Positions 6,830-42,857 of a stretch of 64,000 bases of DNA are shown one piece after another (the stretch's first letter is position 1; the number at the start of each line of letters is the position of its first letter). The translations under genes and the position numbers were made by a program. The notes beneath the pieces were generated by a model. The model saw nothing but the letters and a program-made list of their open reading frames with translations. It searched no databases and was not told the origin of the DNA. Source of the stretch: Rhodoferax sp. WC2427 (GTDB taxonomy: Bacteria > Pseudomonadota > Gammaproteobacteria > Burkholderiales > Burkholderiaceae_C); NCBI RefSeq assembly GCF_040822085.1, contig NZ_CP162006.1:1612001-1676000 (forward strand), written 5' to 3'.

Positions 6830-6918
6830 GAAAGGTGTTGGCAAAAAATGTTCCAACCCAGGACGCACGCGCGCAGGCACAGACCGCCAAAAACGGGTGT
6901 GCACATGGCGCGTTCTCT

Positions 6919-7191
6919 AAGAACGTGTTTGCGGGTTCTTTGATGTCGCGTTGGGGTGCAATCGGGATGAGTTGGTTGTCGGAGACCGCAGCATGGGCTC
7001 CCCGCCCATGCAAGGGTTCCGGCAGACAAATCGCCCGATTTCACCCCAACCCGAAGGGCCGGTGCCTTTTCGGGCGCTCAGCGTCGTTACAAAACCAGCC
7101 AAGGCGGAAAGCCTTGGCCTGGGTTTTGCACCTAGCTGCGCATCCCGAACAGGCATCTGCGCGACCCCAAAGAAACCGTAAACACGTTCTT
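6919..7191. mobile_element. MITE-like inverted-repeat element in the ribH leader
   Basis: A 273-bp segment bounded by long imperfect inverted repeats. The outer 12 bp, AAGAACGTGTTT, are identical at both ends (6919-6930 and, inverted, 7180-7191). CGG, TTCTTTG and GTCGCG blocks continue the match to about 32 bp with 4 mismatches, and TCGGGATG matches again further in. No transposase or convincing reading frame lies inside. This is the structure of a miniature inverted-repeat element, or of a very long RNA hairpin. Its right end overlaps the 3' strand of the FMN riboswitch P1 stem. No clear target-site duplication was seen. Confidence 0.6.
7092..7118 (-). terminator. possible terminator hairpin in the ribH leader
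   Basis: Perfect 8-bp stem GCCAAGGC/GCCTTGGC with a 5-nt loop (7098-7118). Read on the minus strand it is followed by TGGTTTTG, a weak U-run. It lies about 70 nt downstream of the riboswitch aptamer and could be the termination part of the switch. The U-tract is poor, so this is tentative. Confidence 0.4.
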
Positions 7192-7332
7192 GCATCCGGA
7201 CTATGATCGTCGGCTCCGGAATCGCACCGGAATCTGCTGACCCCTTGCATGGCAAACCACGCAAGGGCGCTCGCGGGCTTGTGCATCGCTGCCATCACCG
7301 CCGGTGGGGAATTGCACCCCGCCCTGAGAACG
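7185..7332 (-). promoter_or_regulatory. FMN riboswitch (RFN element)
   Basis: Read on the minus strand, the conserved RFN blocks occur in order: TCTCAGGGCGGGGTG, ATTCCCCACCGGCGGT, AAGCCCGCGAGC, GGTCAGCAGAT, CCGGTGCGATTCCGGAGCC, GACGATCATAGTCCGGATG. P1 is closed by CGTTCT (7327-7332) pairing with AGAACG (7185-7190). It lies about 355 nt upstream of ribH and should lower ribH expression when FMN is plentiful. The long distance is explained by the inverted-repeat element between aptamer and gene. Confidence 0.97.
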
Positions 7333-7408
7333 CTGTTCTGCACGGCTGCGTGCAGAGGCCTCAAGTGTAAGGCTAGGCTTACAACCTGTGCTTATAAGGT
7401 AAATATGC

Positions 7409-7453
7409 GGCTGGCGCTTATTGCATCAGCGTGAGCAGCTATCAAAAGCATAG
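7409..7453 (-). repeat. dispersed hairpin repeat, copy 1
   Basis: Copy of the window-wide repeat (core TAGCTGCTNACGCTGAT-NNN-ATAAGCGC), lying between the end of the lipoprotein gene at 7523 and the riboswitch. Confidence 0.8.
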
Positions 7454-7522
7454 TGTTGTGCCATACGCATTCCACCAACCGCTTGACTGGGTGGTTCCAC
7501 CGCAACCCTGTTGGAAGGGCGT

Positions 7523-42756: not shown

Positions 42757-42857
42757 TCTGACAAGGGCAAACCTGGCGAAAGCCGGGGACGCAAAGCCAC
42801 CGGGCTTCGGCGCTGCACAGCAGCACCATGCTAGCGGGGCTACCGGGCAGGGTCACG
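42757..42857 (+). promoter_or_regulatory. cyclic di-GMP-I riboswitch (GEMM-I)
   Basis: All conserved blocks are present in order: AGGGCAAACC, a GAAA tetraloop on a TGGC/GCCG stem, GGGGACGCAAAGCC, the CCGG receptor side, and the closing GCTAGCGGGGCTACC. P1 can be closed by TGAC (42759-42762) and GTCA (42852-42855). It lies about 60 nt before the start codon of the secreted sedolisin. Whether it turns the gene on or off cannot be read with confidence, because no clear terminator or anti-Shine-Dalgarno stem was recognised. Confidence 0.95.

Follow-up and report, generated by a model that had tools for sequence, protein, structure and literature searches.

The locus described here combines features of two known systems. 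With the FMN riboswitch (RF00050, RFN element), for which work on RFN elements has put forward the idea of an anti-sequestor, it shares an aptamer core, a riboflavin gene as target, a P1 helix and a downstream segment like that of its relatives; it differs by a ~272-nt insert in J6/1 and by the loss of the innermost P6 pair. The insert in turn resembles IS5-family MITEs, which are short, are bounded by terminal repeats and lie between TNA flanks (TNA targets being typical of an IS5 subgroup), and its terminus matches one beside an IS5-type transposase remnant; there is no structural difference from such elements, and what is unusual is the landing site. According to the description of the solved F. 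nucleatum aptamer, P1 becomes aligned with P6 on FMN binding (PMC7573352), and the insert therefore lies at a sensitive place. The closest precedent among the matches listed comes from the pneumococcal trp operon, upstream of which a BOX element is co-transcribed between two T-box riboswitches; RNA-seq led the authors of that study to infer that the riboswitches remain functional (PMC3049150). Both cases, as far as that account goes, place a MITE-like repeat co-transcribed within a riboswitch leader, but the BOX lies between two riboswitches, whereas here the MITE splits a single aptamer at its ligand junction and one of its ends imitates P1. Among the same matches (open-licence PMC articles, judged from titles and the opening lines of abstracts), none places a MITE inside a riboswitch aptamer, and one review treats riboswitch formation by MITEs as merely conceivable (PMC10969869).

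The window, i.e. the whole stretch of 64,000 nucleotides analysed, sits in a 4.78-Mb single-contig genome in which a genome search finds one FMN aptamer. This aptamer precedes, on the minus strand, a lumazine synthase gene that we take to be of the ribH2 type, and its 3′ end runs into a palindromic element (Table 1). Its Rfam score exceeds the gathering score of 66.2, and the ribH2 product scores 136.6 bits with PF00885 and 245 bits, against a cut-off of 160, with NF009084 (PRK12419). The closest named relatives of this ribH belong to Rhodoferax and to a Comamonadaceae member, followed by Polaromonas, Pseudorhodoferax and Variovorax. The gene is, as judged by comparison with its orthologs, under purifying selection (omega 0.10 against congener G007; 0.10-0.23 across five congeners). 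The fold of the 511-nt leader lies 8.8 sd below those of dinucleotide-shuffled sequences, and 78 of the 79 aptamer columns that are invariant across 79 relatives are retained, the exception being the P6 change; many of these relatives are close to each other, and locus L056 was left out of the set for its long insert. Directly upstream of the aptamer, positions 7392-7460 are part of another dispersed repeat with 40 genome matches, self included. The window also holds a c-di-GMP-I-GGC riboswitch aptamer at 42757-42848 on the plus strand (67.5 bits against a cut-off of 59).

Table 1. Coordinates, in window positions, of the ribH2 leader and the element inserted in it.
Feature	Position	Strand	Basis
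Target gene, ribH2-type, encoding a lumazine synthase of 158 aa	6353..6829	-	PF00885, NF009084 (PRK12419)
CGUCCUGG, candidate anti-sequestor element for pairing with aptamer 5′ segment UCAGGGCG (one G-U); putative part of the ancestral platform	6858..6865	-	duplexes of relatives
Original 3′ P1 strand GAGAACGC, separated from the aptamer by the MITE	6910..6917	-	contiguous with the aptamer in insertion-free congeners; predicted pairing
IS5-type MITE, an extensive imperfect palindrome interrupting J6/1 of the FMN aptamer	6919..7191	.	copies, empty sites, TNA flanks
Terminal inverted repeat, distal in RNA sense	6919..6950	.	repeat alignment
Terminal inverted repeat, proximal in RNA sense	7160..7191	.	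repeat alignment
FMN riboswitch aptamer, Rfam match; last ~12 nt are MITE sequence	7180..7335	-	RF00050, 87.5 bits
AGAACG of the MITE end, mimic of the 3′ P1 strand	7185..7190	-	Rfam match, folding
G-to-A change in P6, innermost pair G-C to A.C	7207..7207	-	G in 79/79 relatives
5′ P1 strand GCGUUCUC	7326..7333	-	sequence and predicted pairing

The element is a mobile MITE, as its dispersed copies, matches in related genomes, empty sites, TNA flanks and a terminus beside an IS5-type remnant together indicate. Its terminal repeats of 32 nt are complementary at 28 positions (88%), with CGTTCT at 7185-7190 (AGAACG in the RNA) and AAGAACGTGTTT at 6919-6930 on the plus strand, and mechanically called open reading frames overlap it. 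The genome holds six full copies, namely the window block and five further full-length ones at 85-90% identity. Matches occur in 9 of 60 genomes, its own included, among them congeners G003, G005, G006 and G007, and none was found within this search in congeners G001, G002 and G004; a wider draw gave matches in 13 of 150 genomes at E 1e-15, again counting its own. End detection left 48 distinct copies, duplicates and copies without clear ends being set aside, with typical ends AGAACGTGTT...AACACGTTCT and a length of 267-272 bp in 44. TNA stands on both flanks in 31 of these 48, and the two flanks are identical TNA in 17, against 8.6 expected by re-pairing (P 0.0006); those of the riboswitch copy, TAA and TTG, are not identical. 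Empty orthologous sites were found for two of three other own copies tested (the flanks adjoin in G007 and, for one, also in G002), and the flanks of the third do not adjoin in relatives.

As to an autonomous partner, the sole find is an exact MITE terminus, one end only, that directly abuts an IS5-type transposase remnant in G003; the remnant scores 51.8 bits with PF01609 (cut-off 23) but 84.5 with NF033580, below the cut-off of 110. The match to that query in genome G000 carries stops, and a solitary terminus at G000 C1:285616-285650 has no transposase adjoining it among the listed open reading frames, checked by eye. An end-like stretch (3/12 mismatches) occurs in two of five G022 matches, and equal scores are reached elsewhere in those loci. 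A choice of target by likeness to the element's own ends was considered and set aside: an exact 6-nt end match lies within 14 nt in 2 of the 48 copies (L001, L028), with ~0.2 expected, which is suggestive but too few. In L028 (G005:C77:40928-41198) the left flank GCGTTCTG stands right before the element end, as it does at the riboswitch, and an end-like target preference is possible.

The ribH leaders of five congeners (G002, G003, G005, G006 and G007) provide the orthologous empty site. They read GGATGCAAGAGAACGCG where the window has GGATGC-AAGAACGTG...CACGTTCTT-AGAGAACGCG, which shows that the original 3′ P1 strand persists on the far side of the MITE. From the comparison of these junctions, the FMN riboswitch was there first: an IS5-type MITE of ~272 bp landed in its J6/1, with the GGAUG motif to one side and the 3′ P1 strand to the other, and left all original parts of the riboswitch in place around the insert. 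The usual short J6/1 that joins P1 to the core is absent here, ~272 nt of MITE standing between the core and the original 3′ strand, which can form eight perfect pairs with the 5′ P1 strand; the AGAACG of the MITE end can form six and a G-U, with the register shifted at the junction. Among 80 named ribH loci, none of the 77 recognisable aptamers has a J6/1 insert (76 read NAAGAGA and L133 reads ATAGAGA), and in the other three a split aptamer could escape the pattern. For the relatives used above, the aptamer pattern matched 80 of 84 loci, the others being L065, L110 and L122, in which no aptamer was found, and again L133 (ATAGAGA).

These results bear on a sequence-only reading of the locus, which had recognised an FMN riboswitch and an inverted-repeat element and called the latter MITE-like, all of which stands, coordinates included. 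The search for the 273-bp element across the genome shows that it is not confined to the ribH leader, which refutes the option that it occurs only here and is not mobile, and the ribH leaders of relatives, whose comparison that reading proposed, include those of the five insertion-free congeners. It was right that the 5′ P1 strand has a possible partner in the MITE terminal repeat, but it took the AGAACG of the MITE end for the 3′ P1 strand itself and overlooked the original strand just beyond the element.

A different palindromic insert, with ends near TGTGGTGTTGCACGC, occupies the P3 loop of the same aptamer in G006 (L056 about 902-1063, on G006:C415). It too is multi-copy: copies of ~164 bp with 89-92% identity lie in G000 (two places), in G007 (one) and elsewhere in G006 (one). 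That a single genus has two different MITEs in this riboswitch, in J6/1 here and in the P3 loop in G006, hints that the leader may be a recurrent landing place. An inner hairpin of ~50 bp in the G006 element (query 64-116) resembles that of the window's MITE; this stretch is scattered over many G005 contigs, where 13 of the 14 matches to the whole query lie within it. In a Polaromonas MAG (L111, about 2690-2790) a palindromic insert lies in a peripheral aptamer loop, P4 by our reading, with a core that looks similar by eye (TTAGGCGC...GCAACGAC).

Which P1 the split aptamer would use was addressed with folding models. For the 544-nt leader with the aptamer core enforced, the model gives 1.0 for the original P1 and 0.0 for the MITE-end P1; the bound form costs 17.7 kcal/mol over the free ensemble with the former and 32.9 kcal/mol with the latter. 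In 56 insertion-free relatives (the parser-readable leaders from L048, L049, L054, L055 and L057-L109, whose RNAs start a few nucleotides later than the window's) the same cost is 13.3 ± 2.9 kcal/mol, with a range of 9.4-19.8 (G002 16.1; G007 19.1). The modelled cost with the original P1 in the MITE leader thus falls within the range of relatives without the insertion, although such secondary-structure energies are silent on the three-dimensional FMN site. At full length the free ensemble contains no P1, as expected of the ligand-free state.

The picture depends on transcript length. With the core enforced, the MITE-end P1 is predicted at 0.46-0.97 from 165 to 410 nt, the hairpin between the two repeats takes over at 420-425 nt (0.82 at 425) and the original P1 reaches 1.0 at 436 nt. 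With the core free, the MITE-end P1 reaches strong values at 165-180 nt and again at 400-420 nt; between 190 and 380 nt it stays at or below 0.13 at eight of ten sampled lengths, with 0.37 at 280 and 0.25 at 300 nt. The competition with P1 claimed by the sequence-only reading is recovered in modelled nascent RNA over these lengths. It vanishes when synthesis has passed the distal repeat and the original P1 strand, the MITE then pairing with itself and the MITE-end P1 dropping to 0. Among 25 shuffled inserts, the original P1 exceeds 0.5 in 23 with the core enforced and in 21 with it free (means 0.90 and 0.82), so that rescue by looping out the insert is general and not specific to the MITE. Occupancy of the 5′ P1 strand in mid-transcription, in contrast, averages 0.07-0.19 in shuffles (single ones reach 0.84-1.0) versus 0.86-1.0 for the real MITE. 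It is 0.01-0.14 when the G006 MITE serves as the insert, and three other MITE copies, in both orientations, give at least 0.89 at 19 of 24 points (0.01, 0.05, 0.13, 0.53 and 0.53 at the rest). In these models the provisional P1 is particular to the ends of the window-type MITE.

The ~80 nt from the original P1 strand to the ribH start are common to relatives without the MITE. In the window leader the original P1 is predicted at 0.99 when the RNA ends 47 nt before the ATG and at 0.02 when it ends 27 nt before. With the core enforced, it exceeds 0.5 in 56 of 56 relatives at the first point, in none of the 56 at the second, in 11 at the ATG and in 9 at 27 nt into the gene, so the MITE leader follows the MITE-free course, apart from a P1 that, 27 nt into the gene, exceeds that of most relatives. 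By length the core-enforced values are 0.99 at 470 nt, 0.02-0.03 at 490-517 nt and 1.0 at 544 nt, and the hold of the original P1 thus depends on where the RNA is cut. On these models the MITE is not the expression platform, which lies downstream and switches as in the relatives. A candidate for part of it is CGUCCUGG, the Rhodoferax form of a segment whose pairing with the aptamer, UCAGGGCG/CGCCCUGA, is the best duplex of the aptamer 5′ segment with downstream sequence in 52 of 76 relatives. The median strength of this duplex is reached by 26% of shuffles, so the argument for an anti-sequestor uses conservation only. The strongest duplex of the window is a different one that extends into the coding start, and L055 likewise has another, higher-scoring duplex; with shuffles often scoring as well, the CGUCCUGG/UCAGGGCG pairing is a proposal, one that agrees with an anti-sequestor in which the MITE is not involved.

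Based on the above data, we propose that the MITE, once transcribed, would fold on itself in the leader RNA and bring the flanking sides of the riboswitch together, after which the original P1 of 8 bp and the ancestral platform downstream of it could function almost as they did without the insert. During transcription of the MITE, its end AGAACG may stand in as a provisional P1, until the distal repeat displaces it just before the original P1 strand emerges. With moderate confidence, we favor a riboswitch in which the insert in J6/1 folds out and ribH2 stays under FMN control. That control would probably be weaker or delayed, since the insert sits at the P1/P6 stack where FMN is held. The confidences attached to this and the following readings are not mutually exclusive and do not have to add up to one.

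Counting against retained function is the lost P6 pair: the base is G in 79 of 79 relatives and A here, which makes impairment a serious rival. The MITE could have broken the riboswitch, such that J6/1 is split, FMN no longer stabilizes P1, the aptamer is decaying and ribH2 escapes FMN control, a loss tolerable through ribH1 elsewhere. This unique change at an otherwise invariant base, the insert near the P1/P6 stack that is bridged by FMN according to PMC7573352, and a second lumazine synthase gene (ribH) at C1:3524132 of the same genome all speak for it; the retained invariant columns, the predictions as in relatives for the core, the original P1 and the effect of the platform on P1, and the continued conservation of ribH and its spacer speak against it, and we regard breakage as quite possible but short of an even chance. 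The retained columns speak for function, although this MITE copy carries 15 private differences from the consensus at 247 sites and four mismatches between its 31-nt repeats, the most among 17 copies. The private differences may predate the insertion, which makes the constraint test weak: one change or fewer has P ~0.05 at a neutral rate of 0.061 and ~0.3 at a rate of 0.03.

Within the favored scheme, a stronger role for the MITE end is conceivable, in which it acts as a working provisional P1, the aptamer binds FMN while the MITE is transcribed, and folding of the MITE passes the 5′ P1 strand on to the original 3′ strand. Insert and host would then be compatible owing to a chance match between the MITE terminus and a conserved helix of the riboswitch; we hold such a relay to be rather unlikely. 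It is somewhat more doubtful still that the MITE itself alters expression, through a terminator-like inner hairpin or slowed transcription, and attenuates ribH2 at any FMN level. A terminator-like site does exist on the minus strand (7119-7097, nine pairs, tail GGTTTTGTAA), but its tail has only four consecutive T, and two such sites, one per strand, compare with 1.1 expected in shuffles; the promoter and terminator scans gave these two sites and one promoter-like match on the plus strand, nothing firm. The original proposal that the MITE was exapted as the ribH expression platform, with pairing between its two ends as the switch against P1, finds that pairing present and favored over part of the nascent lengths, but we consider it very improbable, as the MITE-end P1 is ~15 kcal/mol worse than the original P1 in the full leader, and the ancestral segment downstream is still there, its modelled behavior being that of MITE-free relatives, with P1 lost equally with and without the MITE.

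Nature has here carried out an insertion experiment at the ligand junction of a well-studied riboswitch, and close relatives that lack the insertion serve as controls. The locus offers a way to test whether a riboswitch can tolerate a long hairpin placed between P6 and P1, and what palindromic mobile elements do to structured leaders. If the MITE end does act as a relay, a mobile element would have given a riboswitch a kinetic delay and yet not destroyed it.
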